Part shown: positions 5,375 to 25,300 of the stretch, piece after piece
How positions within the stretch are numbered: position 1 is the stretch's first letter
Layout of the letters: every line of letters begins with the position of its first letter
IMG/VR virus record: IMGVR_UViG_3300033156_000450
Coordinates: 1 to 32,685 of that record
DNA length: 32,685 bases
Direction: 5' to 3' (one strand)
Origin: a virus
Translations under genes and position numbers: made by a program
Notes under the pieces: generated by a model
Seen by the model: the letters and a program-made list of their open reading frames with translations, nothing else
What the model was told of the DNA's origin: nothing
The model's database searches: none

Positions 5375-6237
5375 TACTGCTCACCTCCCGATTGCATTTC
5401 GGCGTCGGCCTTTTTGGCGCACGTCAGGCAGAGACACCGACCGAATTTCTGATGTGTCCGGTCGCAGACCTGCTGGAGGGTGTAATTGCCGACAGGTGTA
5501 ATCTCAACGCCGCAGTCGAAGCACTCAGGCGGGCCGCTGAAATCGGGGTCGCCACTGTCGGTTACCGGCGATCGTTCCTCCTGCCCGACCGCCGACTCGA
5601 CATCGATGACCTGCACCTCCTGTTCAGGCGGGGAGTACAGGCGGTTGACTGCGCCAAGAGCAGCCGCAATTACCATCTGTTTGACCTGCGGGTCGGTCAG
5701 GTCTGGCGCAAACGAAATGCGCCGGATACGGAACGGTCGCCGGAGTTCCTGCGGCGTGTACGCCGCCTTCATGCCCAACAGCGAGCGGATGACACGGTTC
5801 TGAGCGCACGACTCGGCGATTGTGTCCATGTGCGCCCGCCTCTGGCGGACCGCGCGCTCAATGCTTTTTTCGGTGTGCTTGGGCTTGCCATCCTTGTCGA
5901 CCTGCGCCTTCAGTCGCTCGGCGTAGGCATTTAGATCAACGGTGTAGCTGGCGCTGAACCCGCGCCACTGACCGTCGCCACCCTGAATGTAACCGACCGC
6001 CGAGGCGGTTACCCTGTCGTTGTTCGGCCGCTCAAACCGAGTCGGCGAGAATTGTATCCCCGCCGCCATCGCCAGCTTGGCATTGGCAACGCGGCTCAGG
6101 CAGAGTTTCCCGCCCTCGGTCTTGTATACCTCGTCCGCATTGTTCGGATTAATGCGTACTTCCGTCGCCGTCTCCTGATGCAGTGCGCTGATGTTCTGAA
6201 CCAGCGCCGTAGGCATCAGGTCTATGCACTCAGTCAT
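5374..6237 (-). CDS. putative single-strand annealing recombinase with C-terminal zinc finger
   Basis: The chosen start, ATG 6237, has GGGAG eight bases upstream and gives 287 residues; an in-frame extension to 6303 would run through the promoter region and lacks a Shine-Dalgarno. The core contains AESCAQNRVIRSLLGMK (about residues 140-157), which resembles the A-E-T-x-A-x-x-R-A-L-R-x-x-L-G-I pattern of ERF/Rad52/Sak-type annealing proteins. A C-terminal tail has CFDC (about 240) and a later CLTC (about 272), a probable zinc finger. It lies directly upstream of SbcD, the usual partner nuclease of phage annealases. The assignment rests on this motif plus context. A related phage protein of unknown function is the alternative. 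Confidence 0.5.
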   Translation of the reverse strand: MTECIDLMPTALVQNISALHQETATEVRINPNNADEVYKTEGGKLCLSRVANAKLAMAAGIQFSPTRFERPNNDRVTASAVGYIQGGDGQWRGFSASYTVDLNAYAERLKAQVDKDGKPKHTEKSIERAVRQRRAHMDTIAESCAQNRVIRSLLGMKAAYTPQELRRPFRIRRISFAPDLTDPQVKQMVIAAALGAVNRLYSPPEQEVQVIDVESAVGQEERSPVTDSGDPDFSGPPECFDCGVEITPVGNYTLQQVCDRTHQKFGRCLCLTCAKKADAEMQSGGEQ

Positions 6238-7227: not shown

Positions 7228-7733
7228 CCGAGTTTGACCCCCTCTTCGAGTCCGTACTCACGGGCCATATGCACGAGGCAGTTGATGGCGGTGTAGACAT
7301 CCCACACCTGTTCCATCAACTGTGAAACCTCCTCCATATCCAGCTCGCCCTTGTATATCTCATGGCAGAGTTTTGTGAGGACCGCCTGCACCTGCTCTGC
7401 CGATTCCTCCGCCTCCTCCACATAGCACGACCCGACCATCGCTGGGTGTCCATCGATCTGATTAGGCACCCAGCCGGTCGGGTACGGAGGGGGAGAGTCT
7501 TGGGGCGAGAGAACAAAATCGTGCTCGCTGCCGTCTTGCCCACTCATCCGAATGATAAGGGGCGACTGCAAGGCACAGGCTATATCCATGAGTACGTTGA
7601 GTGACGGCGGTTTATGCCCGTTGGCTACTGCCCATATATGCTGTGACGACACTCCCGCCTTCCGGGCCAGCGCCCGCTGGGTAAGTTTGAGACGAGCCAG
7701 TGCGTCGGGGATGCCGACAATTTGTATATCCAT
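7164..7733 (-). CDS. XRE-family regulator (Cro/early-side), 189 aa
   Basis: Residues 17-42 (LTQRALARKAGVSSQHIWAV) form a classic XRE helix-turn-helix. The rest is acidic and helical, with no clear peptidase or RecA-cleavage site. It is the first gene of the leftward early operon and faces the rightward repressor gene across 258 bases, the standard position of a Cro-type regulator. ATG 7733 is preceded by AGGGAGGGGGG, and a promoter lies only about 20 bases upstream, so the leader is very short. The large C-terminal domain (about 75-189) may sense something or dimerise; it is not recognised. Confidence 0.75.
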   Translation of the reverse strand: MDIQIVGIPDALARLKLTQRALARKAGVSSQHIWAVANGHKPPSLNVLMDIACALQSPLIIRMSGQDGSEHDFVLSPQDSPPPYPTGWVPNQIDGHPAMVGSCYVEEAEESAEQVQAVLTKLCHEIYKGELDMEEVSQLMEQVWDVYTAINCLVHMAREYGLEEGVKLGWERHFDKMIDQGMHDPDKVC

Positions 7734-7753
7734 TTTCCCCCCTCCCTGTGTAC

Positions 7754-7783
7754 ATCATACAACATGGTGTTATATAAGTGCAA
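7754..7783 (-). promoter_or_regulatory. leftward early promoter
   Basis: On the minus strand TTGCAC (7783-7778) is separated by 18 bases from TATGAT (7759-7754). Transcription would start near 7747, only about 14 bases from the ATG at 7733. Imperfect short inverted repeats (AACA-TGG-TGTT near 7761-7771) overlap the spacer and could be operator half-sites. Confidence 0.6.
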
Positions 7784-7835
7784 GGCAAGGCGGGGGTATT
7801 ATGAGTCCATACGGGAGAGATGCGCCGACCTGTTA

Positions 7836-7844
7836 TGCTATAAT
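7836..7844 (+). promoter_or_regulatory. extended -10 promoter towards the repressor
   Basis: TGCTATAAT is a perfect extended -10 element (TG, one base, TATAAT). No good -35 is present, which extended -10 promoters tolerate. It points at the repressor gene. Confidence 0.45.
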
Positions 7845-7888
7845 GCAACCAAACGGTGTATTAGCCCGATATTTAACGCCATACCGTC

Positions 7889-7920
7889 GTATTGACCAAT
7901 ACAACAAGCCGGTGTATGGT
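7889..7920 (+). promoter_or_regulatory. repressor promoter with palindromic operator
   Basis: TTGACC (7892-7897), 17 bases, TATGGT (7915-7920) gives a plausible sigma-70 promoter. The -35 box is inside an exact inverted repeat, GTATTG-AC-CAATAC (7889-7902). A dimeric regulator bound there would occlude the promoter, as expected for a lysogeny switch. Confidence 0.55.
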
Positions 7921-7933
7921 TGGCGTAGGGGAT

Positions 7934-7966
7934 TATGTGTAGAGGCTGCTGCTGCCTAGACACATA
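7934..7966 (+). other. 5'-leader stem-loop of the repressor mRNA
   Basis: TATGTGT (7934-7940) pairs with ACACATA (7960-7966); inside it AGGC pairs with GCCT around a TGCTGCT loop. The hairpin ends directly before GGGGGTG, the only good Shine-Dalgarno of the repressor gene, so it could affect ribosome access or mRNA stability. Confidence 0.55.
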
Positions 7967-7991
7967 GGGGGTGTAGGCAACGAGTACCGAG

Positions 7992-8399
7992 TTGCGCGAG
8001 ATAGGACGACGGCTGGAGCAGATGCGCAAAGACAAGGGCCTCAGCCGACGTGAGGTCGCAGAGCATTTGGGCACTACGATTCAGAGCATTTACAACTGGG
8101 AGCGCCATCGCGGCGGGAGAATGCCGCCCTATGAGGCTCTATTCGCGATGGTAGAACTGTACCAACGGCACATCGGCGAGGTCTTTGGGATACCCGACCC
8201 CAAGCGGGTGTATCTGCGGGATATCACTCATCAGTTGCCCGATGACTTGGCTGAGTGGGTCTGTCAGGAGGGCAGTGAAGAGTTCCTGCTAATGGCCCGA
8301 GAGATAGATGAAAACAACATCGATCCCGACTTCATTCGCGGCATAATCAATATCATGCGGGCACAGAAACGTCATCAAAACGAGGAAGGGGACACATGA
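7992..8399 (+). CDS. XRE-family prophage repressor
   Basis: This protein is 135 aa from TTG 7992. An XRE helix-turn-helix occupies about residues 4-45 (KGLSRREVAEHLGTTIQSIY, then NWERHR). The C-terminal half is acidic and helical and lacks a Ser-Lys peptidase, so a LexA-type self-cleavage mechanism is not supported. The start is uncertain. TTG 7992 is 20 bases from GGGGGTG, while the in-frame ACG at 7980 is eight bases from it and would give a natural-looking T-S-T-E-L N terminus after initiation. No ATG or GTG is available after the TAG at 7974. The gene opens the rightward lysogeny operon; its stop abuts the next ATG (TGAATG). Confidence 0.75.
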   Translation: MREIGRRLEQMRKDKGLSRREVAEHLGTTIQSIYNWERHRGGRMPPYEALFAMVELYQRHIGEVFGIPDPKRVYLRDITHQLPDDLAEWVCQEGSEEFLLMAREIDENNIDPDFIRGIINIMRAQKRHQNEEGDT

Positions 8400-8780
8400 A
8401 TGCCCATCGACAGAATACATCAGCCGCACATTCAGACACGTGCCGAACATGCATTTGAAGAAGTGGTGCTCCATAGCGGCACAACGACAGATTTAGGCAC
8501 GGGATCGGCCGTCAATCTGTCCGGCTACGTATGTGCCTGGCTGGTCGTCGGTGTCTCTGATATTGCCTCCAACTCACGATTGACGCTTGAAATGCAATAC
8601 CTCGCTGGCAGTAAGTGGGTTCGTATGCCCGATACTAAGGTTGAATACTCCGCAGCCACGACATCTCCACAGGCTATAGCAATAGACCTCCCACCGTCGG
8701 CGCAGGCCCGCATAGCATGGACGCTATCAGGTGACGCGCCCTCCGCGACGTGGTCAGCATCACTGCATCTGTCATCATAG
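8400..8780 (+). CDS. paralogue of the late tail-region protein at 15957-16346
   Basis: This 126-residue beta-rich protein matches the product of the leftward late gene at 15957-16346. Both have G-Y-x-x-x-W-L-V-V-x-V-x-D in the middle, a KW(V/F)...P strand, and a shared end R-(I/L)-(A/V)-W-T-x-x-G-D-x-P-S followed by S-A-x-L-x-x-x-S. The ATG directly follows the repressor stop, with GAGGAAGGGG upstream, so it is translated from the repressor message and should be made in the lysogen. The late copy lies among tail and lysis genes. A decoy or exclusion role for this copy is inference; a stray duplicate of a structural gene is the alternative. Confidence 0.75.
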   Translation: MPIDRIHQPHIQTRAEHAFEEVVLHSGTTTDLGTGSAVNLSGYVCAWLVVGVSDIASNSRLTLEMQYLAGSKWVRMPDTKVEYSAATTSPQAIAIDLPPSAQARIAWTLSGDAPSATWSASLHLSS

Positions 8781-8802
8781 GGCTGCAAACGAGGTGGGAA
8801 TT

Positions 8803-8925
8803 ATGGCAGCCCAGACAGCAATCCAAGAGCCTCCTGTCGTTTTAAAGATTGTACCGACAACCCACGTTATCGTCTATTGTGCGATATCCAGCAACATCGC
8901 GCTCATCGGTCGGCCGTCAGAGTGA
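8803..8925 (+). CDS. 40-aa hypothetical protein
   Basis: ATG 8803 follows GAGGTGGG at good distance and opens 40 residues. The middle (about residues 12-37, VVLKIVPTTHVIVYCAISSN and on) is hydrophobic and beta-prone, with one cysteine. It may be a small membrane-associated or secreted peptide, though it lacks a clear charged signal-peptide N terminus. It starts 22 bases after the tail-paralogue stop and is likely in the same transcript. Not recognised. Confidence 0.5.
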   Translation: MAAQTAIQEPPVVLKIVPTTHVIVYCAISSNIALIGRPSE

Positions 8926-9018
8926 CCGAGGAGTGATCAACCGTTTGCGTAGTCGGGTCGATCCGGGACCGGCTGCAACTGTCTCTGGGCGCTATGACAA
9001 TAATGGGGGGTTGGTATA

Positions 9019-9447
9019 ATGTGGCGGTTAGGCATCATCGGACTCGTTGCCGTCCTGCTGGCCGGTTGCAGTGCAGCGACGCCGGAGGGCATAATCGGCA
9101 GGTCGACAAACGGTGGGTCCGGTGCAACCAGCATCACGATGTCTGAGGGCACGTTGACGATCCACTACAATTTCATGCCGGTTCGGGCGACAACCGACCC
9201 CGAACTCCGCAAGGAGATAGGCCGGAAGTGGGCCGATAAGATCAAGCGGCTGTTTGACACCAGTCCCAGTCTGCGCACGGTGGTAGTCTGGGTGACGCTA
9301 CCCTACGACGATGTATATGGAAAGCGTACCTGGAAACAGTACCTCAGATGGTCCATCAGTCGCAGCAAATATGAGCATATACAATGGGACCATTTCACCG
9401 ACGACGACCTGCTGAGGATCGTAGACACCATCAAACCGCTGCAGTAA
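9019..9447 (+). CDS. lipoprotein encoded in the lysogeny block
   Basis: The N terminus is a lipoprotein signal peptide: hydrophobic residues 4-14 and the lipobox L-A-G-C with C17. The mature part of about 125 residues has a strand-rich start (GTLTIHYNFMP) and a helix-rich end (KEIGRKWADKIKRLF). It should sit on the outer face of the cytoplasmic membrane. Lipoproteins expressed from prophages often exclude superinfecting phages or block DNA entry, and the location between repressor and integrase suits such a lysogenic-conversion role, but no specific family is recognised. The start has GGGGGG about eight bases upstream. Confidence 0.8.
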   Translation: MWRLGIIGLVAVLLAGCSAATPEGIIGRSTNGGSGATSITMSEGTLTIHYNFMPVRATTDPELRKEIGRKWADKIKRLFDTSPSLRTVVVWVTLPYDDVYGKRTWKQYLRWSISRSKYEHIQWDHFTDDDLLRIVDTIKPLQ

Positions 9448-9459
9448 GGGGGTATGGGG

Positions 9460-9549
9460 ATGAGGGGTTTGCAGGCCGCAGGCTGGATGCTCGCGGGGAT
9501 TTTGCTGGCGCTGGTGCTGATAGCAGTCTACCGTCTGGCGGCGGGCTAG
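9460..9549 (+). CDS. 29-aa single-span membrane peptide
   Basis: ATG 9460 is six bases after GGGGG, and the frame runs to TAG 9547-9549, giving 29 residues. An in-frame ATG at 9454 is too near the Shine-Dalgarno. Residues about 8-25 (GWMLAGILLALVLIAVYR) form one transmembrane helix with a positive C-terminal side. It lies 12 bases after the lipoprotein and three bases before the integrase, so it is almost certainly co-transcribed. It may partner the lipoprotein or be a small holin- or toxin-like peptide. Confidence 0.55.
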   Translation: MRGLQAAGWMLAGILLALVLIAVYRLAAG

Positions 9550-9552
9550 ACA

Positions 9553-10695
9553 ATGGGGTCTATCCGCAAGCGGGGTAAGGGCACCTGGACAATCATCTAC
9601 AGCCTCGGTCGGGACCCGCAGACGGGCAAATACCGGCAGAAGTGGGAGACCATCAAAGGCACGAAGGCACAAGCAAAGGCCGTCCTGGCAGAGCGTGAGG
9701 CTGCTGTTGCCAGGGGTCAGATGCAAGACACATCGCGGATGACCGTCGGGCAGTTTCTGGCGCGATGGTATGACTCGCATGTAACCCGAATCCGGCCCGC
9801 AACCGCCACGAGCTATGAGATACAAATTCGTTGCCACATCACTCCCGCTATCGGCAGCATTCTCCTGTCCAAGCTCACACCCTTGGACCTCCAGGAGCTC
9901 TACGCCGCCAAACTACAGGGTGGCCGCAGCGACGGCAAGCCGGGCGGCCTATCTCCGCAGTCGGTGAGATATATCCACGCCGTGATTCGCGAGGCGTTGT
10001 CCGATGCCGTGCGGTGGGGGATGGTCAGCCGCAATGTGGCCGACCTGATCGACCCACCTCGGCCCGATAAACAACGTCCGACTGCCTGGACAGTCGAGCA
10101 GGCAACCGTGTTCCTCCAGGCAACCCGCAACGATGCAGTTTACCCACTCTATCTGCTGGCCCTGATGACCGGAATGCGGCGCGGCGAACTGCTGGCTCTG
10201 GAGTGGCAGGATATCGATTGGGACCGGAGGACCGTGAGCGTCCAGCGTAGCGTGCAAAGGGTCGGCCGTCGGTTGATTGTCGGTGTGCCGAAAACCGAGC
10301 ATAGCGTAAGGCAGGTCGCCCTACCCGACTCCTGTATCCAGGCCCTGCGGCATCATCGTACCCATCAGTTGCAGATACGGCTAATAATGGGCGGGCGCTA
10401 CCTCGACTGCCATCTGGTGTTCCCCGGTCCGGGGGGTGAGCATATGGAGCCCAGGGCGCTGACACGACGCTATGAACGTGCAATCAAGCGCCTGCCGGTC
10501 CCGTACATCCCCTTTCACGGACTCCGCCACACCCACGCTACAACCCTGCTCAAACAGGGCATTCATCCCAAGGTGGTAGCGGAGAGACTGGGGCATTCGC
10601 AGATTCGGACCACGATGGACACCTACAGCCATGTACTGCCCAGTATGCAGGAGGAGGCAGCCCGCGCAGTGGAGAGGGTGTTGGGCGAGTTTTAG
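9553..10695 (+). CDS. int: tyrosine-type phage integrase
   Basis: This 380-residue site-specific recombinase has a basic N-terminal arm-binding segment (SIRKRGKGTW, 3-12), a SAM-like core-binding domain (about 62-160) and a catalytic domain with the full set R209 (in TGMRRGEL), K247, H322-x-x-R325, H348 and the nucleophile Y358 in TYSH. Length and order are typical of integrases that use tRNA genes as attB. All catalytic residues are present, so it should be active. It ends the rightward operon. Its stop codon lies inside a 23-bp direct repeat, and a terminator plus a tRNA-3'-end-like segment follow, consistent with attP. The ATG at 9553 is close to the preceding stop and lacks a strong Shine-Dalgarno, so coupled translation is likely. 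Confidence 0.95.
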   Translation: MGSIRKRGKGTWTIIYSLGRDPQTGKYRQKWETIKGTKAQAKAVLAEREAAVARGQMQDTSRMTVGQFLARWYDSHVTRIRPATATSYEIQIRCHITPAIGSILLSKLTPLDLQELYAAKLQGGRSDGKPGGLSPQSVRYIHAVIREALSDAVRWGMVSRNVADLIDPPRPDKQRPTAWTVEQATVFLQATRNDAVYPLYLLALMTGMRRGELLALEWQDIDWDRRTVSVQRSVQRVGRRLIVGVPKTEHSVRQVALPDSCIQALRHHRTHQLQIRLIMGGRYLDCHLVFPGPGGEHMEPRALTRRYERAIKRLPVPYIPFHGLRHTHATTLLKQGIHPKVVAERLGHSQIRTTMDTYSHVLPSMQEEAARAVERVLGEF

Positions 10696-10709
10696 CAAAT
10701 TCGTAGCAG
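10687..10709 (+). repeat. attP-flanking direct repeat, copy 1
   Basis: The sequence GAGTTTTAGCAAATT-CG-TAGCAG recurs 278 bases downstream with only two mismatches in 23. It overlaps the integrase stop codon and contains TAGCA twice. The copies lie on either side of the tRNA-like segment, as arm-type integrase sites do. Confidence 0.8.
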
Positions 10710-10729
10710 GTTGCCTCGGCCCGTCCCCA

Positions 10730-10760
10730 GTCCGATGGAATTCGTCCCGAACCATCGGAC
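10730..10760 (+). other. 9-bp inverted repeat after integrase
   Basis: GTCCGATGG (10730-10738) and CCATCGGAC (10752-10760) are exact inverted copies around a 13-base loop. This hairpin comes directly before the terminator and may protect the mRNA 3' end or bind protein in attP. Confidence 0.6.
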
Positions 10761-10761
10761 G

Positions 10762-10795
10762 CCGAAACCCCCGCAGTGCGGGGGTTTCCGGTTTT
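10762..10795 (+). terminator. integrase terminator
   Basis: AAACCCCCGC and GCGGGGGTTT form a ten-base-pair stem with an AGT loop, extended by CCG/CGG around one bulged base, followed by TTTT. It is a strong rho-independent terminator for rightward transcription. Confidence 0.85.
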
Positions 10796-10803
10796 AACCT
10801 CCG

Positions 10804-10847
10804 TGGTCGGGCCGGCCGGACTCGAACCGGCGGCCTCTTGAACCCCA
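10804..10847 (-). other. attP: tRNA 3'-end segment, probable attP core
   Basis: On the minus strand this segment holds a perfect T arm (GCCGG-TTCGAGT-CCGGC) followed by CGGCCCG, a discriminator A and CCA. A TGGGG followed by TTCAAG upstream fits part of an anticodon arm. A full tRNA fold is not formed, since D and anticodon stems are missing, though CGGGCCG at 10882-10876 would pair with the acceptor 3' side. Phages that integrate into tRNA genes carry just such a 3' piece as the attP core. The C1-G72 pair and A73 would suit tRNA-Pro, but identity is not secure. Confidence 0.65.
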
Positions 10848-10964
10848 TTTATGCGTCATGTCGCGCGCCCTGTGGCGGCCCGGCACACGAATGCAGTTCC
10901 CACGGGGGTTTCGAGCGTCCTTCCCGGTTTGATTCGGGTCCACAGACGCCCATCGGCGCGGCAG

Positions 10965-10987
10965 GAGTTTTAGCAAATTATTAGCAG
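10965..10987 (+). repeat. attP-flanking direct repeat, copy 2
   Basis: GAGTTTTAGCAAATT-AT-TAGCAG matches copy 1 at 21 of 23 positions. The surrounding sequence is not otherwise duplicated, so this is a specific short repeat rather than a large duplication. Confidence 0.8.
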
Positions 10988-11024
10988 TCTGTCACCTCGA
11001 TATCTAAGTTCGCGGTCTAGGCAT

Positions 11025-11288
11025 CTACTCCATCGCGCCGTGCAATGTCAGCGCCCAACCTGTACCCCTGCATTCGGGGCAATCCTCTGTTACATGCCCG
11101 TTGCAGGTAGCGCAGTCAACGAGTAGGGGGTCAGGTTGGTGATTACCGCTGTATGCAACAACGGCATGAATGATTTGGTTCCTACACATATGCATGACCG
11201 TCGGCCCGTCCGCTGACATGTGAGGAGCATCCTGGCCCCATTGGCGGATAAGTGTCCTGAGCCGTGATTCGAGGGTTGTCTTATTCAT
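11025..11288 (-). CDS. small protein with half a DnaJ-type zinc finger, 87 aa
   Basis: ATG 11288 has GGAGGAGGGCGAGGGGG directly upstream and gives 87 residues. Residues about 62-80 read C-A-T-C-N-G...C-P-E-C-R-G-T-G, two CxxCxG units as in the DnaJ Cys-rich domain, enough for one zinc site. The N-terminal part is helical and basic (LESRLRTLIRQWGQ). The gene overlaps the 3' end of the ribbon-helix-helix gene by eight bases. It is the last gene of the accessory operon before attP. Function unknown; a nucleic-acid or partner-binding role is possible. Confidence 0.7.
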   Translation of the reverse strand: MNKTTLESRLRTLIRQWGQDAPHMSADGPTVMHMCRNQIIHAVVAYSGNHQPDPLLVDCATCNGHVTEDCPECRGTGWALTLHGAME

Positions 11289-11451
11289 CCCCCTCGCCCT
11301 CCTCCAGATACTTCGCAACCGGCGGATACGCCCGGATCGCCTCCACCGCCAGGGCCGACATGCTCGACCCCGGTCCAGCCTCGAACGCAGCGCGACGCAG
11401 GGCCTCGCGCATGGCAGGGGATACGTAGACGTTGAGTTGGATGGTTTTCAC
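11281..11451 (-). CDS. ribbon-helix-helix protein, 56 aa
   Basis: GTG 11451, preceded by GGGGGG-AACAAC, opens a 56-residue frame ending at TAA 11281. The pattern is a short beta strand (KTIQLNVYVSP) followed by a basic helix (AMREALRRAAFEA), a turn with G-P-G-S-S and a second helix (MSALAVEAIRAY). This is the Arc/CopG/MetJ-like DNA-binding fold. No toxin gene is evident beside it, so it is more likely a local regulator than an antitoxin. Its place in the accessory operon suggests it could control that operon's promoter at 13696-13724. Confidence 0.7.
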   Translation of the reverse strand: MKTIQLNVYVSPAMREALRRAAFEAGPGSSMSALAVEAIRAYPPVAKYLEEGEGDE

Positions 11452-11464
11452 GTTGTTCCCCCCT

Positions 11465-11704
11465 TTATCTGATATGGCCGCCGGGATTGCGGATGAGCCA
11501 GAGCATGTCTGTGGTCAGCCACTTGCGGCGGGCCTCCGCCACCGACTCGGCCTCGATGCTGTAGATGTGCCGCGCCGAGTAGCCGCCCTGTGCGCGGCAA
11601 CCCCGGTTGTGGTCGGCACAACATCGCTCGGCGGCCTCGCGGGTTGCATGGATCACGTCGCAGCCTTGGGGCGACTGCTCCCAGCAGGTATAATAACGCG
11701 CCAT
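11465..11704 (-). CDS. hypothetical protein, 79 aa
   Basis: ATG 11704 is preceded by GGAGGGGGACACCG, giving a better start than the longer frame to 11722. The 79-residue product begins MARYYTCWEQ and has five cysteines, with a helix REAAERCCADHN and a second helix SVAEARRKWLTT. The alternating strand-helix-strand-helix layout looks like a small alpha/beta fold. No family recognised. A repeated GC hairpin module (11731-11792) lies just upstream. Confidence 0.6.
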   Translation of the reverse strand: MARYYTCWEQSPQGCDVIHATREAAERCCADHNRGCRAQGGYSARHIYSIEAESVAEARRKWLTTDMLWLIRNPGGHIR

Positions 11705-11730
11705 CGGTGTCCCCCTCCTCATCTGTATTT

Positions 11731-11792
11731 GCGGTCTCCCGCGACCGGGGTTGCCCCCGGTTTCGGCCCCTACAGGGCCTCGTCAGGCGGGG
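11731..11792 (-). repeat. intergenic double-hairpin module, copy 1
   Basis: About 62 bases nearly identical to 12384-12445. Each copy has two stem-loops: ACCGGGG/CCCCGGT and GGCCC/GGGCC. The loops differ between copies while the stems are kept (CTACA versus TCT in the second stem-loop), which suggests selection for RNA structure. It spans the stop codon of the gene at 11783 and the leader of the gene at 11704. No T-tract follows, so it is not a standard terminator. Confidence 0.75.
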
Positions 11793-12343
11793 ACGTCCGT
11801 GTCGGTCACGAGTTTTCCGGCTCCAGCAATCACCTGGGCCTGATGGTCCAACAGGTGAGCAATTGCGCGGATTTGGTCGTCCTCCCACCAGGGGCAGGAC
11901 TCCAGCCACCCGCGTGCGTACTGGGTTAGCTCTGCAGCCTCTTTCAAGGCCGCGACGACTTCGCGGGACATGGCGCGTTGTGCGATAGTCTCAGATTTTG
12001 GCCTGTGGCGAAGGCCATGCCGCATGTCGTGCAGTACGTGCATGGTGTATCTCCCTGCACGCTGTTCCTGCTCCAGCATGTCCGCGATAACCGCGTACGT
12101 GCTGGCCTGAGGGCCTCCCCTCAGGAGTTTGACGGCAGCCTTAGCCGCCTGGTCGGCGACGAGGGCCACCGATCCTGCTAGGTCGATCTCGTCTTTGGTG
12201 CGGCTATCGTCTGGTTCGCACCCAGATTCTATACGCACCTGGGCATCGATAGCCCAGAGGCAACCCTGGAGCACGGCACGGAGCCAGTCAGGTGTCTCGG
12301 CCTGTTGGTGCAGGGCAGACAACGCCATCTTCGTCTGTTTCAT
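11783..12343 (-). CDS. hypothetical protein, 186 aa
   Basis: This 186-residue, almost wholly helical, acidic protein has no membrane segment or known motif. Helices near residues 5-35 (MALSALHQQAETPDWLRAVL) and 125-175 (AALKEAAELTQYARGW) dominate; the centre holds MHVLHDMRHGLRHR. ATG 12343 has GAGGAGGG a few bases upstream, immediately after a leader hairpin. Its stop lies within the first copy of the repeated double-hairpin module. It resembles many phage accessory proteins of unknown role. Confidence 0.65.
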   Translation of the reverse strand: MKQTKMALSALHQQAETPDWLRAVLQGCLWAIDAQVRIESGCEPDDSRTKDEIDLAGSVALVADQAAKAAVKLLRGGPQASTYAVIADMLEQEQRAGRYTMHVLHDMRHGLRHRPKSETIAQRAMSREVVAALKEAAELTQYARGWLESCPWWEDDQIRAIAHLLDHQAQVIAGAGKLVTDTDVPA

Positions 12344-12357
12344 CTTGTTCCCTCCTC

Positions 12358-12375
12358 GCCCGGTCTCAGCCGGGC
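12358..12375 (-). promoter_or_regulatory. leader hairpin next to the Shine-Dalgarno, copy 1
   Basis: On the minus strand GCCCGG-CTGAGA-CCGGGC is followed at once by GAGGAGGG, the ribosome-binding site of the gene at 12343. The same design recurs before the gene at 13135. Confidence 0.6.
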
Positions 12376-12383
12376 TTGATTGT

Positions 12384-12445
12384 GCGGTCCTCCCGCGACC
12401 GGGGCCTGGCCCCGGTTTCGGCCCTCTGGGCCTCGTCAGGCGGGG
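12384..12445 (-). repeat. intergenic double-hairpin module, copy 2
   Basis: Second copy of the 62-base module. The first stem here is a perfect nine-base inverted repeat, ACCGGGGCC-T-GGCCCCGGT, and the second is GGCCC-TCT-GGGCC. It lies in the gap between genes at 12456 and 12343, followed on the minus strand by a further leader hairpin (12358-12375). Confidence 0.75.
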
Positions 12446-12455
12446 CTGCCAATTG

Positions 12456-12824
12456 TCAATAGTGCGCTGCGCACACCGGCATCTCCGGATAAGCGCATAG
12501 CGTAGGCCCTACAACACGGGCCAACCGCCGACAACCGACAATTCGCCCGCCCTCATCCCGGATATAATCGTCCGGGATGAGGAAATCCTGCCGCTCACAG
12601 CACGCCTGGGCAGCGGGGAGGGAGACTATGTAGCATGTCCCCCTCTCCCTGGGCGGCAACTCATCCGCCGCTCCCAGGCGCTTGCTCACCAGGGGGATGC
12701 CGTCGATATCCCCCTGCGGCTCAATCTCCTCCGTCAGTCGGAGCACTCCGGCCGATGGAATCTCACGGACCCCGGACGCCAGATGGAGGCGGATCACGTG
12801 CGGGGTGAGGTTGACTAGGTTCAT
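12456..12824 (-). CDS. phage conserved protein of the NLTPH type, 122 aa
   Basis: The protein begins with N-L-V-N-L-T-P-H-V-I, a signature I recall from a widespread phage hypothetical family that also shows an I-P-x-S-G-x-x-R segment, a G-I-P-L-V strand, a G-T-x-Y-I-V-S strand and a final R-D-E-x-G-R-I-V-G-C-R. All are present here. Function of the family is not known to me. ATG 12824 overlaps the upstream stop as ATGA, and GGGAGGG lies six bases ahead, so it is coupled to the preceding gene. Confidence 0.75.
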   Translation of the reverse strand: MNLVNLTPHVIRLHLASGVREIPSAGVLRLTEEIEPQGDIDGIPLVSKRLGAADELPPRERGTCYIVSLPAAQACCERQDFLIPDDYIRDEGGRIVGCRRLARVVGPTLCAYPEMPVCAAHY

Positions 12825-13135
12825 GATGTTCCCTCCCGACATACAGGGGCGACGGCCCATGACAGGCCCCATTTACTCCAGCCGCCCACCTCGTACCAGG
12901 GTCGCCCCGGGGCGTCGGCAGCCAGGCGGACGGGATCCGCCGCCAACCTTTGCTTTTCTCCTGCGGTCACTAGTTCTGGGTTATTGGCAGCGCACTCCCG
13001 TGCCTGCCGGTGGGCATACGCAACTGCGTCCTCTCGCCGTTCGAACGGCGAGGATACATACGTCTGCCCTCCTTCATTGTGTTGTTCTATAACTACCCAG
13101 TTTTTTACGCCGCTCCAGTCGGTTACGGATGTCAC
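12821..13135 (-). CDS. hypothetical protein, 104 aa
   Basis: GTG 13135 with GAGGAGGGGG just upstream opens 104 residues. The N-terminal half reads like a small alpha/beta domain: a strand NWVVIEQHNEG, then FERREDAVAYAHRQARECA, a helix rich in R and A. This strand-loop-helix layout occurs in short phage proteins that modify host factors, but nothing specific is recognised. A leader hairpin precedes the ribosome-binding site, and the stop overlaps the next start (ATGA). Confidence 0.6.
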   Translation of the reverse strand: MTSVTDWSGVKNWVVIEQHNEGGQTYVSSPFERREDAVAYAHRQARECAANNPELVTAGEKQRLAADPVRLAADAPGRPWYEVGGWSKWGLSWAVAPVCREGTS

Positions 13136-13150
13136 GGTATCCCCCTCCTC

Positions 13151-13169
13151 GCCCGGCTCAGGGCCGGGC
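13151..13169 (-). promoter_or_regulatory. leader hairpin next to the Shine-Dalgarno, copy 2
   Basis: On the minus strand GCCCGGC-CCTGA-GCCGGGC is followed directly by GAGGAGGGGG. It matches the hairpin at 12358-12375 in stem, loop (both hold CTGA) and position relative to the ribosome-binding site, although the genes behind are unrelated. Confidence 0.6.
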
Positions 13170-13185
13170 TATGTATTTTCCGACC

Positions 13186-13674
13186 CTACCCAATCTCCAG
13201 CAGCCGCCGTATCTCCTCCAACCCAACCATCTGCCCCGCAGGGAGCTGGACCTGGGTGTCGGGTCCCTCCTCCTCCAGCCGCCGCCGCGCTTGGCGCACA
13301 TACGCCAGGGAGGTGGTCCGCTGGCTGGGGGTAAGCTCCTGGCCCTCAATGGCCGCCGTCCACGCCGCCAGGGCCTCATCCCAGGCGGCGACCTTCTCGG
13401 CCCGCTCCTGCTGCGCCGAGGAATCCTCGTTCAGCCCCAGGGCCTCGGCCAGATCCTCGATGCCGCCGAGGGTCCGCAGGGCGTGGCACCATTGGTCGGC
13501 GGTGCCCTTCGTCCGCACCTCTTGCCAGGTGCCGTCCGCCTGGCGGTCCAGGTAGCCGAGACCGCGCCAGGGCTGCCGCCGCGTGCCGTGCTCGATCTCG
13601 ATGTAAATCCGGCACTTGCCGTGTTTCTGCCAGGCGTTGGCCCGGTAGCCATTCCTCATTATCGTCTGAGCCAT
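13186..13674 (-). CDS. hypothetical protein, first gene of accessory operon, 162 aa
   Basis: ATG 13674 is six bases from GGGGAGGGG; the ATG at 13680 overlaps too closely. The product (162 aa) starts with a small beta-rich domain (about 8-60: RANAWQKHGKCRIYIEIEHG, then RGLGYLDRQADGTW) and ends in a long charged helical region (about 90-150) with EERAEKV-type heptads and SLAYVRQARRRLEEEG. The first part may bind nucleic acid, as KHGK-x-R-I-Y-I-E strands suggest. Not recognised. A strong promoter stands 22 bases upstream of the start. Confidence 0.6.
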   Translation of the reverse strand: MAQTIMRNGYRANAWQKHGKCRIYIEIEHGTRRQPWRGLGYLDRQADGTWQEVRTKGTADQWCHALRTLGGIEDLAEALGLNEDSSAQQERAEKVAAWDEALAAWTAAIEGQELTPSQRTTSLAYVRQARRRLEEEGPDTQVQLPAGQMVGLEEIRRLLEIG

Positions 13675-13695
13675 TCCCATCCCCTCCCCATCTAC

Positions 13696-13724
13696 ATAAT
13701 AGCATAGTGGTATACGCCTGTCAA
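13696..13724 (-). promoter_or_regulatory. strong sigma-70 promoter of the accessory operon
   Basis: On the minus strand a perfect TTGACA (13724-13719) is separated by exactly 17 bases from TATTAT (13701-13696). Start of RNA would be about 13689, right at the Shine-Dalgarno of the gene at 13674. This is the best promoter match in the window. Confidence 0.85.
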
Positions 13725-13743
13725 GGGGTTTCCGAGAAAAGAT

Positions 13744-13780
13744 GAAAAAAATTTGGCCCCACCCACAAAGGGGCGGGGCC
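13744..13780 (-). terminator. terminator of the late/lysis operon
   Basis: On the minus strand GGCCCC-G-CCC pairs with GGG-T-GGGGCC across a TTTGT loop, followed by AAATTTTTTT. It lies 22 bases after the holin-like gene stop and ends late transcription. Confidence 0.85.
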
Positions 13781-13801
13781 GGAGGGGTTGGAGCCAGCAA
13801 C

Positions 13802-14050
13802 TCAGCCGCTGAGCGTATGCTTCCCGGCGCTCCAGAATCCTGCCGCGCTCAGGCCGACGGCGAGGCCGATGATTAGTGCCCTGAACCACTCAACGTCGGA
13901 TAGGTAGGCGTGCCCCAGAGACAGTACCACGCCAAACCCGACGGCCAGCAACCCGGCGAACCGGGAGGGAAACCCGAAACCCTTGACCACCTGCACAACC
14001 GCAACGATGATGGCGACGGCACCGACTCCGCTGATGAGTTCAAAGTCCAT
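13802..14050 (-). CDS. holin-like membrane protein, 82 aa
   Basis: This 82-residue protein has three hydrophobic segments (about 7-25, 33-52 and 58-76), a short polar N terminus and no signal peptide. Size, three spans and position directly after the endolysin gene fit a phage holin, which would pierce the membrane and release the endolysin. The start, ATG 14050, has GGGAGGAG six bases upstream and lies 11 bases inside the endolysin 3' end. The sequence is not close to a holin family I can name. Confidence 0.7.
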   Translation of the reverse strand: MDFELISGVGAVAIIVAVVQVVKGFGFPSRFAGLLAVGFGVVLSLGHAYLSDVEWFRALIIGLAVGLSAAGFWSAGKHTLSG

Positions 14051-14780
14051 CAACCGCTCCTCCCTTCATACCCGACAACAGCGCTAGACAGTTGTGGGCG
14101 GACTCTTGGATATCCCTCAACTCACTCTTGACCGCTTCGATGTCCGGTCCCGGCTCCGTGCAGTCCAGCAGTCGGTATTTGCGCATGATCCCCAGGACCT
14201 TGTCTACATAAGCGATATCCGTAGCATACCCGGCGCGCCAGACCCAGTAGACGTAGGCAATGGGACAGGTGGGCCACTCGCGGGCGGCAGCGTACCTGCT
14301 TGCATCCAGAATCAGGGCGGCATAGTCACGCAGGCTGTCGACAGTGGATTCATAGGTCCTAAACTTCGCCTGGACCCGAACCTTCTTGCCGTCCCTATAC
14401 TCCCATGTTCGGCGCTCAACGCAGTCGCCTGTGCCCGTCCACTTGATGCCGAACAGGTTGTTGCCCGGTGCAGACTCGCCGAAATTACTCTCTAGACACG
14501 CCTGGGCCAGGACGGCAGCGGCAGGCAGGCCATGTGCCCGCTCGATATGCTCCACATGAGGGCGTAGAGCCGCAATGAACAAAATCCGCTTGAGCGTGCC
14601 CAATGTCTCCGGTCCGGCAATACCGTCAATCTGCAGGGCATAGTACCGCTGAAACGCCGTGACGGCCTGCGCCGTCATCTGGTCGTAGTTGCCATCGGGC
14701 GTCCCGTCCAACCAGCCCAGATATGTGAGTTCTCGTTGCAGTCGGTCGACCTCCAGGCCCGAATCACCTAGCCGCAGCAT
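14040..14780 (-). CDS. endolysin: peptidoglycan-binding plus glucosaminidase
   Basis: This 246-residue protein has an N-terminal peptidoglycan-binding domain (about 3-65; LGDSGLEVDRLQRELTYLG, with TPDG and GIAGPETL). The catalytic domain (about 75-205) is of the endo-beta-N-acetylglucosaminidase (GH73/FlgJ-like) type: AVLAQACLESNFGES with probable catalytic Glu97, then NNLFGIKW, then FRTYESTVDSLRDYA. It should cut the glycan strands of the host wall at lysis. It sits between a membrane/coiled-coil gene (17-base overlap) and the holin-like gene (11-base overlap). No signal peptide is seen, so release depends on a holin. Confidence 0.88.
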   Translation of the reverse strand: MLRLGDSGLEVDRLQRELTYLGWLDGTPDGNYDQMTAQAVTAFQRYYALQIDGIAGPETLGTLKRILFIAALRPHVEHIERAHGLPAAAVLAQACLESNFGESAPGNNLFGIKWTGTGDCVERRTWEYRDGKKVRVQAKFRTYESTVDSLRDYAALILDASRYAAAREWPTCPIAYVYWVWRAGYATDIAYVDKVLGIMRKYRLLDCTEPGPDIEAVKSELRDIQESAHNCLALLSGMKGGAVDGL

Positions 14781-15078
14781 CGCGGTAGTCTCCTCTCAGA
14801 TGCCGTGTATGTTCAAGGATTTCACGGGTCATGGCGTTCTGGTCAGACAGGGCGGCGTTCATGCTGTTCAGGGTCTCCCGGAGTTCGCGCCTATCCTCGG
14901 ATTCCTGTTGCTTGCAGGTGCGGAGATACGTAACCAACTCGGTCATCGTTTCGCCAAGCCCCTTCATCGTACTCATCACCTGCAGGGTCGAGGGCAGAAA
15001 TGCCTTGAGCACGTACACTAGTACTCCTAGAGCGGCTATGCCCAAACCTGCGTCCGCCAACTGCATGAACCAATCCAC
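14764..15078 (-). CDS. membrane-anchored coiled-coil protein of the lysis cassette, 104 aa
   Basis: The GTG at 15078 has GGGAGGTGG seven bases upstream. One transmembrane helix (about 8-29, ADAGLGIAALGVLVYVLKAF) is followed by a long polar alpha helix with heptad character (about 38-98, including EDRRELRETLNSMNAALSDQ). The layout, an N-terminal anchor and a coiled coil of about 60 residues, fits the haemolysin XhlA-type or holin-associated proteins next to endolysins. An i-spanin role is another option if the host has an outer membrane. No cleavable signal peptide or lipobox is present. Confidence 0.65.
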   Translation of the reverse strand: MDWFMQLADAGLGIAALGVLVYVLKAFLPSTLQVMSTMKGLGETMTELVTYLRTCKQQESEDRRELRETLNSMNAALSDQNAMTREILEHTRHLRGDYRDAAAR

Positions 15079-15096
15079 GTCCCGGCCACCTCCCAG

Positions 15097-15960
15097 TCAG
15101 TCAATCACAATCGCGGTGGGCACAGGGCGTTCCCGGCCGTCGCTGGGACGATTGATTACGTGCCCTTGCCAGACCAGCGTTGACGATCTACCCCCGTCGA
15201 GAGATATTGCATTGTTGCACCAGCCTGCTTGTCCGTGCAGGTCTGGTGTATTGAGCGCCATTCCCATCACGTCACGCAACTGCGTCAGAGTTAGTCCCGC
15301 ACTACCGTGCCGCCGACCGTCGGCGACGACGAACCACAGCATGGCGTCCGACCACCCGATGGCCGACCGAGGCTGACGCCTCCGCAAATTCCAGCAGGTG
15401 CGCCCGATGTCCGCTTTCCCGTCGACAATCAACCGCGTATAGCTGGCGACGCAGTTCTCCACGCCGGATTTCGCCAACAGACTGGCCCGTCCAGGGTGGC
15501 GCAGTATCCGTAGGTTGTCCACGTCGAGGATCGCCCACTCTCCGGCCCGGTTGTCTGCCAAATCATTGACGACAGTTCCTTCATATATAGTAGCGCCTAT
15601 GGGAAGGCCGGAGCGCAGGTCGAAGAACCCGCCGTTGATGGCCGCTATGTGGCCCCGTGCGTGTCTGCTGACTGGCTGAGGACGACCTAGCACCATCCGC
15701 TGAGTGTAGCGCTTGCGGTCAAATCCAAGAGCATACACAGTGTTGTTGCAGATGCGCCACTCTCTTGCTACCACGCCTGTTGCCTCATACAGAGACGCAC
15801 AGGTTTTCGGCCCCACAATCCCATCTACCGATAACCCCGCCTGCTGCTGGAACGCTACCACCGCCCGCCCCGTTTTTGGCCCATAGATGCCGTCAATCGG
15901 ACCGGGGTCGTGCCCTGCGGCCCGGAGCCACAGTTGCAGCAGCTTGTCCCCGGCGCTCAT
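15097..15960 (-). CDS. peptidoglycan-binding / phosphodiester glycosidase (NAGPA-like)
   Basis: Starting at ATG 15960 (ATGA overlap with the upstream gene) the protein is 287 residues; the longer frame to 16119 would overlap that gene entirely. Residues about 5-62 form a peptidoglycan-binding domain (DGIYGPKTGRAVVAFQQQ, then GIVGPKT). Residues about 75-287 match the phosphodiester glycosidase (NAGPA, DUF2233) family: INGGFFD, P-I-G-x-x-I-x-E-G, A-I-G-W, and SLDGGRSS near the end. This family removes sugars linked through phosphodiesters, as in exopolysaccharide or teichoic-type polymers. It may be a tail-associated or late wall/capsule-degrading enzyme. Confidence 0.78.
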   Translation of the reverse strand: MSAGDKLLQLWLRAAGHDPGPIDGIYGPKTGRAVVAFQQQAGLSVDGIVGPKTCASLYEATGVVAREWRICNNTVYALGFDRKRYTQRMVLGRPQPVSRHARGHIAAINGGFFDLRSGLPIGATIYEGTVVNDLADNRAGEWAILDVDNLRILRHPGRASLLAKSGVENCVASYTRLIVDGKADIGRTCWNLRRRQPRSAIGWSDAMLWFVVADGRRHGSAGLTLTQLRDVMGMALNTPDLHGQAGWCNNAISLDGGRSSTLVWQGHVINRPSDGRERPVPTAIVID

Positions 15961-16359: not shown

Positions 16360-16602
16360 TCACGTCGTCAGTTTGGTCGTCACAATCGCGCTGTTGAGGT
16401 CCAGCCCGCTGATGGCAACGGTGTCGCCGACGTTGAGGGTGAGGTCTACGTTGTATGGCAGCCAGCGGGTTACCGTGCTCGTCGCCGTGCGCTTGATTTT
16501 GCACTCATGGTCCGTGCTGTTCACCTGACTCACAATCCAGTAGCGGGGCAGGGGCCGGGTCCCTGCAAGGACGATGTCGTCTATTTCCCGCGCAATACTC
16601 AT
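16360..16602 (-). CDS. small tail-region protein, 80 aa
   Basis: ATG 16602 overlaps the stop of the 787-residue gene (ATGA). The 80-residue protein is beta-rich with a basic centre (DHECKIKRTATSTVTRWLP) and an OB-like pattern (VGDTVAISGLD) in the second half. Similar short proteins follow tail-hub genes and may plug or join baseplate pieces. No name can be given. Confidence 0.65.
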   Translation of the reverse strand: MSIAREIDDIVLAGTRPLPRYWIVSQVNSTDHECKIKRTATSTVTRWLPYNVDLTLNVGDTVAISGLDLNSAIVTTKLTT

Positions 16603-18962
16603 AGCTCCTGAACCTCCGCTATAACATCGTATTGGCTCGATGTTCCGTCATCAACAAGCGTGAATTTCTCAATGACATACACGGTCCCCGCCGTATCGTC
16701 CGGGTCCAGGCGCACCAGGATGCAGTCACCGGGTTCGAGGTCCGAGGCTGGCGACGGGCCGTCGGCAATATGCGTCAGTCTCGCCCGCGCCGTCTGTCGG
16801 CTGGCGCGCCGTAACTGTTCAAGGGCAAACAGGTCCAGCTTGTTCTGCGTGTTCGCCAGTGCGGCGAAGAGGATGGGACTGGCGCGTTCACCGAGGTTCA
16901 CCGTCGAGGTTTTTGACCATGCACTGTCATTCGTCTTCGTCACCTGGAGTGGATTAGTGGGACTGCCGTTGTCCGCCAGGATGATGTTGTAGATGTCTGC
17001 GTCGCTGTAAATCTGCTGTGCCTCGAACGCCGAATCGAACTCCGGCATGTCGTCCACCCACGGTTCGGTGTCAGCGAAGCGGGCGGTCAAAAACCCAAAG
17101 CGGTCGTAGAACAACTCCCAGCCGAGGTCTCTACACAACTGGTATAGACTTTCCCACTTGGTTGTGCCCCTGTTCCAGGTAACCGCAGGGACCAGTTGTA
17201 GTGTCGGTTGTATTGCCATGCGCGTTTCTCCGGCGTCGTTGGCGATTGTCTGGAGCAGGTCGAACAGACGGCCCGTTGCCGTGCCGGCGGTGGGGCGTTT
17301 AATTTCCACAAAGCGGACGGCGGGAGGGGGACCATGCCAGCCGAGGAACGTGATGCGAACATAGCGCATCGAAACATCATAGCCAATTGCGGCCAGTAGC
17401 GCTTCCAGCCGTGTGCCGCATGTAAACCGTCCGACGTGGAACCATGTGCTGTATGTCGGATGGTAATAGCTGACTTCAACCTCGTATCGCGCCAGGGGAT
17501 CGCCGTCGGCCAGACCCAGGCGACAGGAGACTTGGCTCATGTTGACCGAAGAACCGCAGTCCAGTTCCAGGTATGGAGTGAGCTCGTCGGGATCGGGCCG
17601 CCAGGGCGTTTCGTCGTCGACCAAAGCGTCACTTGCGCTGTAAGTGATGTCGGTCACAATCGCGATGCTGGCCGTTATCGGACCGCTGCTTTTGGTAATA
17701 ACGACCTTGATGTACCGGGCATTGCCCGTCGTGCCCTCTGTGTAGGTGGTGCCGTCGGTAGACAGGTAGATGGTATCCGTTCCGTTGGTGGTTACCGTCG
17801 TACTCTGTAGGTCTTCCGTCGCCTGGAGATCGATGATGGTTGTTAAGGTCAGCAGTGTCAATCCGCTGGCGGAGTAGTCCACAGAGTAGTCGCCGTCGAG
17901 GATGTCTCCCGTCTCGCTGTCGGGCTCTACCTCCGACTGAATGCCGCCGACAGTGGCCTCCAGTGTGGTCGACCCAATGCGGGCCTGTGAGGTAATGTCG
18001 TCCCCGGCGGTCATGGATGATGAACCCGTGGCCGTCGATGCCAACTGGTTGCCCTCGCTGGCCGACGTATCCTCATAGGTCGTCTCGTCCTGCCAGCGGG
18101 CCAACACCAATCCCTTGCTGCGGTCACGGCAGTAGACGATACACTCCTCCAGCCCCGGCGGGCCGGAGAGTTCAATCTCATCTATGTAGCCCTCGAATAC
18201 CTGCCCGGTTTTGGCCTCTTTGTCCAGTCGGACGTAGTCGACGTCGGCAACGCCGTCGCCGCATGCATGGTTTACCGCGACCAGGGGCCGGATGTAGTAT
18301 GTGCCGGGATAGGCAAAAGCGGGGTCATAAATATTCACATGTCGCGGTCCGGCCGGTGTACCAGTTCCGCGCAGGTATCCGGTGTAAGTCGTCCACGAAC
18401 CATCCGCGGTCTGCGTCTGCCCGGAGGCTGCGATATAGTGCTGGCTACCCAGATCTCGAAACATCCGCAGGTTAATGCCTCCGGCCGTGTAGCAATTCAC
18501 GCCGCAGTATATGCCCTTGCCGCCGCTGGCGGGGTCCGACACCTGTGCAACCCGCGTTGTGAGACGGTAAAGCGCCGTGGGGTCAAATGTGATGTCAGTC
18601 GGGTATGTAAACCATTTGTACCCGGTGAACCGCGCCTTCTTCCAGTAGCTGCAACCCGTGTCGTCGACATAGGTCACCGTCCCTGAGCCGCCAGACACCG
18701 TCCACGAATCCAGATCATCATTGTTCATCTCCGCCGCGACTACCGACTCCCATCCCTGGTATCCGTCTCCCTGCCCACTGTCGTAGATGCGCACCAGGCG
18801 ACCCAAGGTTTTGAGGTCCTGGAGATAGGTTTTGGGACACCGAAATGTGGCGGTACGCCGCACAGACCGATTCCTGTCGGCGTCAATCTCGATACGATGG
18901 CAGTCGATAGTCTTGATGAGGGTCGTACCTGCCGAGTCGTAGAGCTTACAGACCAGACTCAT
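16599..18962 (-). CDS. tail hub / tail-associated protein with discoidin-like insert, 787 aa
   Basis: The N-terminal 60 residues (beta-rich, ending TFRCPKTYLQDL) and the C-terminal 190 (DADIYNIILADNGS... to the QTARARLTHIADG and EPGDCILVRLDPDD segments) resemble phage tail-hub proteins in which a late-tail domain ends in a beta barrel. Between them lie a carbohydrate-binding-like jelly roll (about 75-250; WTVSGGSGTVTYVDDTGCSY) and a discoidin/F5-8C-like stretch (about 440-530; TPYLELDCGSSVNMSQVSCR). The inserted domains probably contact host surface sugars. ATG 18962 has GGAGGTG eight bases upstream. It follows the DNRLRE protein with a four-base overlap. Confidence 0.7.
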   Translation of the reverse strand: MSLVCKLYDSAGTTLIKTIDCHRIEIDADRNRSVRRTATFRCPKTYLQDLKTLGRLVRIYDSGQGDGYQGWESVVAAEMNNDDLDSWTVSGGSGTVTYVDDTGCSYWKKARFTGYKWFTYPTDITFDPTALYRLTTRVAQVSDPASGGKGIYCGVNCYTAGGINLRMFRDLGSQHYIAASGQTQTADGSWTTYTGYLRGTGTPAGPRHVNIYDPAFAYPGTYYIRPLVAVNHACGDGVADVDYVRLDKEAKTGQVFEGYIDEIELSGPPGLEECIVYCRDRSKGLVLARWQDETTYEDTSASEGNQLASTATGSSSMTAGDDITSQARIGSTTLEATVGGIQSEVEPDSETGDILDGDYSVDYSASGLTLLTLTTIIDLQATEDLQSTTVTTNGTDTIYLSTDGTTYTEGTTGNARYIKVVITKSSGPITASIAIVTDITYSASDALVDDETPWRPDPDELTPYLELDCGSSVNMSQVSCRLGLADGDPLARYEVEVSYYHPTYSTWFHVGRFTCGTRLEALLAAIGYDVSMRYVRITFLGWHGPPPAVRFVEIKRPTAGTATGRLFDLLQTIANDAGETRMAIQPTLQLVPAVTWNRGTTKWESLYQLCRDLGWELFYDRFGFLTARFADTEPWVDDMPEFDSAFEAQQIYSDADIYNIILADNGSPTNPLQVTKTNDSAWSKTSTVNLGERASPILFAALANTQNKLDLFALEQLRRASRQTARARLTHIADGPSPASDLEPGDCILVRLDPDDTAGTVYVIEKFTLVDDGTSSQYDVIAEVQEL

Positions 18963-23464: not shown

Positions 23465-23549
23465 TCCGTCACCTCCCAAGATAGAGGACCGCACGGCAGC
23501 AGGGATGCGAGGAGGGGGTGCCCACAACCCTGCCACCGGCGGTCATAAT

Positions 23550-25177: not shown

Positions 25178-25300
25178 GTAGCCGTCACTCCCTGTCTGTT
25201 CTCACCTCCCCTGGTGGCAACCCCAATACAAGGATGCGCCCCGGCAGGCGGTGGGGTAAAGCCGCTTTTCGCCGCGTCCGGCTATCCAGGGCGCAAGGGT

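Follow-up and report, generated by a model that had tools for sequence, protein, structure and literature searches.

The 32,685-base virus record analysed here (the window) carries two 62-base modules that, judged by sequence and predicted fold, are complete type I hammerhead ribozymes on the minus strand. Both are predicted to cleave themselves. In each, the 3' strand of stem I has a second complement a short way downstream that can pair with the first bases after the cut, so cleavage would yield an mRNA with a 5'-terminal hairpin. The ribozymes lie between accessory genes, and they probably cut the shared transcript into single-gene messages with protected ends and serve as an attachable cassette, while two GCCCGG hairpins would keep Shine-Dalgarno (SD) sites free.

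Copy A is located at 12384-12445 (-) and copy B at 11731-11792 (-), each including one arm of the post-cleavage hairpin. On the minus strand, the module is ordered CCCGC-CUGACGA-stem II-GAAA-stem III-UC^-GCGGG, where ^ is the predicted cut (C12397/G12396 in copy A, C11743/G11742 in copy B). The conserved core CUGANGA...GAAA...NUH is present in both as CUGACGA, GAAA, and GUC. Stem I is formed by CCCGC and GCGGG, and stems I, II, and III have lengths of 5, 5, and 9 in copy A and 5, 6, and 7 in copy B. All three helices form around the core of both copies, including the core-adjacent pairs A15.1-U16.1, 10.1-11.1, and 1.1-2.1. Stem I is the open end and hairpin loops close stems II and III, an order that fits type I. 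For copy B, the minimum-energy fold of 11800-11723 is the full hammerhead (-37.9 kcal/mol). Each 62-base module begins one base beyond stem I and ends where the 3' arm of the post-cleavage hairpin ends.

The covariance model R1 was built from 40 other phage and prophage hammerheads, excluding the window and its relative, contig L208. It scores copy A at 58.8 bits (E 1.4e-12) and copy B at 65.4 bits (E 3.3e-14), and the next-best score is 14.5 bits. Pair counts in the R1 alignment agree with the stems; since its sequences had been selected for pairing, the independent evidence consists of the scores of the window copies and a reversed-sequence control (below). The pattern CTGANGAN{7,20}GAAACN{8,30}GTC occurs twice in the window versus 0.04 times expected from shuffles. 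The Rfam model RF00163 (Hammerhead_1) describes the same core, stems, and open-stem-I topology. Its score for copy A is 16.7 bits and copy B is absent from its hits, so the gathering cutoff of 34 bits, a search threshold and not a biological feature of hammerheads, is not reached. Hammerhead_1 also misses clear class members in L006, L029, L160, L163, and L167 and is therefore insensitive to this class.

The two modules had been pointed out in a first-pass annotation, which described loops that differ while stems are kept and unrelated genes behind the elements. All of this is borne out, as is its view of a shared RNA device rather than gene duplication. Processing was among the three functions it offered for such a control device, although the hammerhead identity went unrecognised. 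As the module is a hammerhead, the RNA itself is predicted to make the cut, and a processing enzyme is unnecessary.

The source of the window is a temperate tailed phage, as indicated by an integrase gene (9553-10695, +), a holin gene (13802-14053), an endolysin gene (14040-14780), and tail genes (16599-18962 and 21089-23536). The ribozymes and GCCCGG hairpins are situated among accessory genes between the lysis genes and the integrase, downstream of the former. All genes around the four elements are on the minus strand, and the RNA elements are therefore to be read on that strand. The first gene, behind the 13151-13169 hairpin, encodes 104 amino acids from a GTG start (12821-13135, -). It is followed by a 122-aa gene (12456-12824, -), upstream of ribozyme A, whose stop codon begins 19 nt before the ribozyme core. 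The 186-aa gene between the ribozymes (11783-12343, -) ends in a UGA (11785-11783) that is part of the CUGACGA core of ribozyme B; its protein has no relative in viral_contigs. Downstream of ribozyme B is a 79-aa gene (11465-11704, -) that starts MARYYTCW after an SD at 11720-11711. An 85-aa open reading frame called for this gene begins within the leader.

The 122-aa protein resembles PADLOC PDLC01138 'Unk_01' (E 4.1e-24) and PHROG 30542 (E 1.1e-22). 'Unk_01' is a small protein that is sometimes fused to CARF, and the 122-aa protein would be a phage copy of a defence-associated small protein. A nucleotide search of annotated phages gave no relative of the window, and a search of the whole window with Rfam at gathering thresholds found int-alpA alone. 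This int-alpA RNA is located at 25221-25292 (-), near structural genes (48.9 bits versus a cutoff of 35.8). Beside the integrase, at 10803-10850, is an apparent 3' end of a tRNA gene (GGTTCGAGTCCGGCCGGCCCGACCA, minus strand), which is probably the attachment site; ARAGORN detects no whole tRNA there. At 11025-11318 (-), a 97-aa protein carries a motif like a zinc finger that resembles anti-TRAP (NCBIfam E 1.7e-5, below cutoff). SbcC- and SbcD-like genes occupy 2611-5374 (-). The window starts with a 12-nt repeat array (2-190), and degenerate repeats spaced at multiples of 33 nt lie in a coding region at 31571-32625.

Contig L208 is 97.9% identical to window 7488-11792 and 94.4% identical to 13184-15644. 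From 11792 to 13184 there is no collinear match, and the genes there differ. Homology stops at 11792, the first base beyond stem I of ribozyme B, and genes have been exchanged at the ribozyme edge. In L208, the stop codon of a 304-aa gene is, judged by sequence, the UGA of the hammerhead core. An exchange at this position is what recombination scars might leave, and a contact of loop II with the tail is not evident in the window copies, as in inactive hammerhead relics. That the modules are such relics or scars with no RNA function is nevertheless very unlikely, as every core base is intact in copies A, B, and L208, and loops and stems have changed while pairing was kept.

Core-pattern scans of viral and genome contigs yielded 29, at least 119, and 48 stretches that carry such a core. 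A descriptor of the core and three stems identifies 240 unique type I hammerheads in the 201 sequences searched and 0 in the same sequences reversed; core patterns had been used to collect the loci, which makes the reversed sequences the relevant control. Most of these hammerheads (200/240) are positioned between open reading frames. In 83 of 203 cases, the upstream gene terminates at the UGA within the CUGANGA core. An SD and start codon follow within 100 nt of the cut in 158/216, at a median of 36 nt, versus 19% in shuffled tails. In contig G002, 16 such ribozymes are packed into 8 kb, where most of them alternate with genes, and many of its genes end inside the next ribozyme. This array of 16, at L212 1219-9275 (contig IMGVR_UViG_3300036780_000230, 16718-24774), has approximately one ribozyme per gene, and one of the genes is DNA-ligase-like. 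Successive gene leaders of a Bacillota contig (L163 2414-2749) contain different ribozymes, a hammerhead and a Twister-sister (53.9 bits), with seemingly the same role.

The post-cleavage hairpin in both window copies reuses the 3' strand of stem I. The predicted cleaved mRNA begins with GCGG[GAGGA]CCGC in copy A (12384-12396, -; -5.9 kcal/mol) and with GCGG[GAGA]CCGC in copy B (11731-11742, -; -7.7 kcal/mol). Across the class, 85 products start with GCGG, and in 55 of them CCGC starts at nucleotides 8-25, as opposed to 6/85 and 10/85 in later stretches. Swapping tails within the GCGG class shows no excess of pairing at nucleotides 1-2 (0.871 versus 0.875), as expected because the arms are the same throughout, and a fifth base pair of the hairpin reaches only p=0.05. 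The covariation evidence therefore rests mainly on other stem I sequences. Among 92 products of the non-GCGG type, one per locus, 29 have at least 4 bp starting from nucleotide 1-2, compared with 10.7 +- 2.9 after tails are swapped (p=0.0005, the floor of 2000 permutations). Folding energies agree with this test, and the excess is not seen when the start is shifted downstream by 10, 20, or 30 nt. The downstream arm varies together with stem I: the pairs are GUGGG/CCCAC in L104, L107, and L167, UGUGGA/UCCACA in L142, UAUUGC/GCAAUA in L109, and CGGGA/UCCCG in L116. A TTA-type subclass is largely without the 5' hairpin (nucleotides 1-2 paired in 12%).

The downstream arm and the 5' strand of stem I compete for the same bases. 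Pairing downstream excludes stem I and so cannot operate during the cut itself, only ahead of it or following it. Minimum-energy folding of the full-length RNA gives the product hairpin instead of stem I in both copies, which makes the timing of folding matter. This fold is what would be expected if the alternative hairpin regulated cleavage by competing with stem I, in response to folding conditions, a ligand, or ribosomes at the core UGA. The uncut window RNA would in addition hide the SD (CCCCGCCU with AGGAGGGG), and the cut would free it: in the window copies, predicted SD accessibility increases on cutting from 0.18 to 0.69/0.99, and in L208 from 0.19 to 0.76. Shuffles, however, give each window case a 6-10% probability of arising by chance. 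Across the class, accessibility is 0.39 versus 0.44 with shuffled upstream halves, and SD masking by the uncut ribozyme was rejected as a class feature. Stem I is also transcribed before the downstream arm, which gives the ribozyme the first chance to fold. A cleavage switch of this kind is accordingly an improbable explanation. Pairing after the cut is likelier than before it, because transcription produces the 5' strand of stem I first and reaches the downstream arm only at the end.

Cleavage into single-gene messages, the preferred reading, would proceed as follows. As the polycistronic transcript emerges, each ribozyme would fold its stems I, II, and III and cut after the conserved UC. The ribozyme would stay on the upstream message as a structured 3' terminus; the stop codon of that message precedes the cut and, for copy B, is the core UGA itself. 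The downstream message would start with the freed 3' strand of stem I, which would pair with the second complement CCGC a few bases on. The new 5'-OH end would then fold into a hairpin from its very first bases, ahead of the ribosome-binding site. Each gene would thereby receive its own message with standard, protected ends, and a cassette that ends in a ribozyme could be joined to any gene. One point against this mechanism is that a ribosome terminating on the core UGA would cover the ribozyme.

At least 4 complementary bases between loop II and nucleotides 4-14 of the tail are present in 47/85 GCGG members versus 16.8 +- 3.4 after swapping. The window copies, in which loop II is short (AGA, UGUAG), show no evident pseudoknot of this kind within nucleotides 4-14 and may therefore cleave slowly. 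In copy B, stem I contains an A bulge, and a CUGUA/UACAG pairing further down looks possible by eye only.

Cleavage could also lower expression. The glmS ribozyme of Bacillus subtilis likewise resides in an mRNA leader and leaves a 5'-OH message, which is degraded by RNase J1 (PMC3997798). It differs from the phage elements in having another ribozyme fold, in being ligand-dependent, and in its location in the 5' UTR of its own gene. By this precedent from Firmicutes, the phage ribozymes would cut for down-regulation, with the 5'-OH exposing the downstream message to decay and the 5' hairpin merely tuning it. Such decay is also a reason why the 5' hairpin may matter. In a large part of the class, covariation preserves a hairpin that begins at nucleotide 1-2, and both the literature on 5' stem-loops, as represented in PMC3997798 by Emory 1992, and the synthetic RiboJ element (PMC6206723) point to stabilisation. 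Down-regulation is thus considered unlikely.

The GCCCGG hairpins are a separate element. GCCCGG[CTGAGA]CCGGGC (12358-12375, -) directly abuts the SD GAGGAGG (12351-12357, -) of the 186-aa gene, and GCCCGGC[CCTGA]GCCGGGC (13151-13169, -) abuts the SD GAGGAGG (13144-13150) of the 104-aa gene. The first-pass annotation had placed both correctly, leaving the strand unstated. A hairpin of at least 6 bp is found directly upstream at 5 of the 53 GGAGG-plus-start sites in the window (0.75 expected), and two of the five are GCCCGG hairpins. They are probably spacers that keep the SD unpaired in a very GC-rich RNA. The gene at 12343-11783 is the only one with both a ribozyme and 5' hairpin and an SD-adjacent hairpin. 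No ribozyme precedes the 13151-13169 hairpin, which was itself considered as a third, degenerate ribozyme and rejected, as R1 has no match nearby. The proposal of one device common to all four elements is therefore too broad: the two ribozymes with their 5' hairpins are alike, and the two SD-adjacent hairpins are of another kind.

An earlier suggestion was that a phage translation-control protein binds the GCCCGG and double hairpins, the former with a CTGA loop. Two similar stems do lie directly at SD sites, and an unrelated contig, L154, has GCCCGGCGGAACCGGGC or a near copy before several of its starts. The ribozyme identity fully explains the double hairpins, though, and there is no evidence for such a protein: the loops vary (CTGAGA and CCTGA in the window, CGGAA in L154), no candidate protein was found, and the exchanged cassette of L208 has no GCCCGG hairpin before its GGAGG sites. 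Protein binding is a very improbable explanation. L154 is the comparable case; hairpin matches in L149 and L151-L153 appear, by eye, to be coding sequence and were set aside. L154 also has an approximately 60-nt leader (CCCGATCCGGCGGGAACCACCGCCATGCCCGGAATTGCTGGCGGTAAAAAAGGAG) that occurs twice (5940-6003 and 7383-7447) before unrelated genes and has no Rfam match.

Tandem hammerheads in prophages are an established type. The available portion of Perreault 2011 (PMC3088659) reports cleavage in vitro for three tandem arrangements, cleavage in E. coli as well for the A. tumefaciens arrangement, and a suggested role in processing long phage RNAs. The hammerheads described there flank single genes or short blocks in prophages, and the identities of these genes are not constant. 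The window has the same organisation, with two co-directional ribozymes separating its accessory genes. Pseudoknots between stems I and II are described for all three types in that portion of the work, and the loop II/tail complementarity of the present class resembles them. The largest cluster it names is a triple, compared with 16 ribozymes in G002. Neither a further complement of stem I that would form a 5' hairpin after cleavage nor a core UGA used as the upstream stop codon is described in that portion. A 2017 review (PMC6155905) called the role of hammerheads in prokaryotes and their phages open. No report of the 5' hairpin was found in the open-access papers searched, which is weak evidence of novelty; the hairpin appears to have been overlooked in phage hammerheads so far. 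The window ribozymes belong to a known type, and the covarying post-cleavage hairpin and the stop codon within the core are, as far as can be told, new observations. Together, these two features suggest a testable role in making protected single-gene messages.

A close parallel is RiboJ (PMC6206723), a synthetic element in which all messages start with the same hairpin after cleavage and expression rises. In RiboJ, an sTRSV ribozyme and a 23-nt hairpin appended as a separate part are placed at the promoter junction. The order of hammerhead, hairpin, and ribosome-binding site is shared with the phage elements, where sequence and covariation predict that the cleaved message starts with a hairpin ahead of the ribosome-binding site. 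Unlike in RiboJ, the 3' strand of stem I doubles as one arm of the phage hairpin, and the element is located between genes. The evidence leaves evenly balanced the broader proposal of a widespread phage type I class in which this strand serves catalysis and then seals the new mRNA 5' end as a hairpin. Its members would be natural RiboJ-like parts, up to approximately one per gene, that give uniform single-gene messages and exchangeable cassettes. If so, the design behind RiboJ, a product of synthetic biology, already exists in nature, which would supply many natural variants of it.
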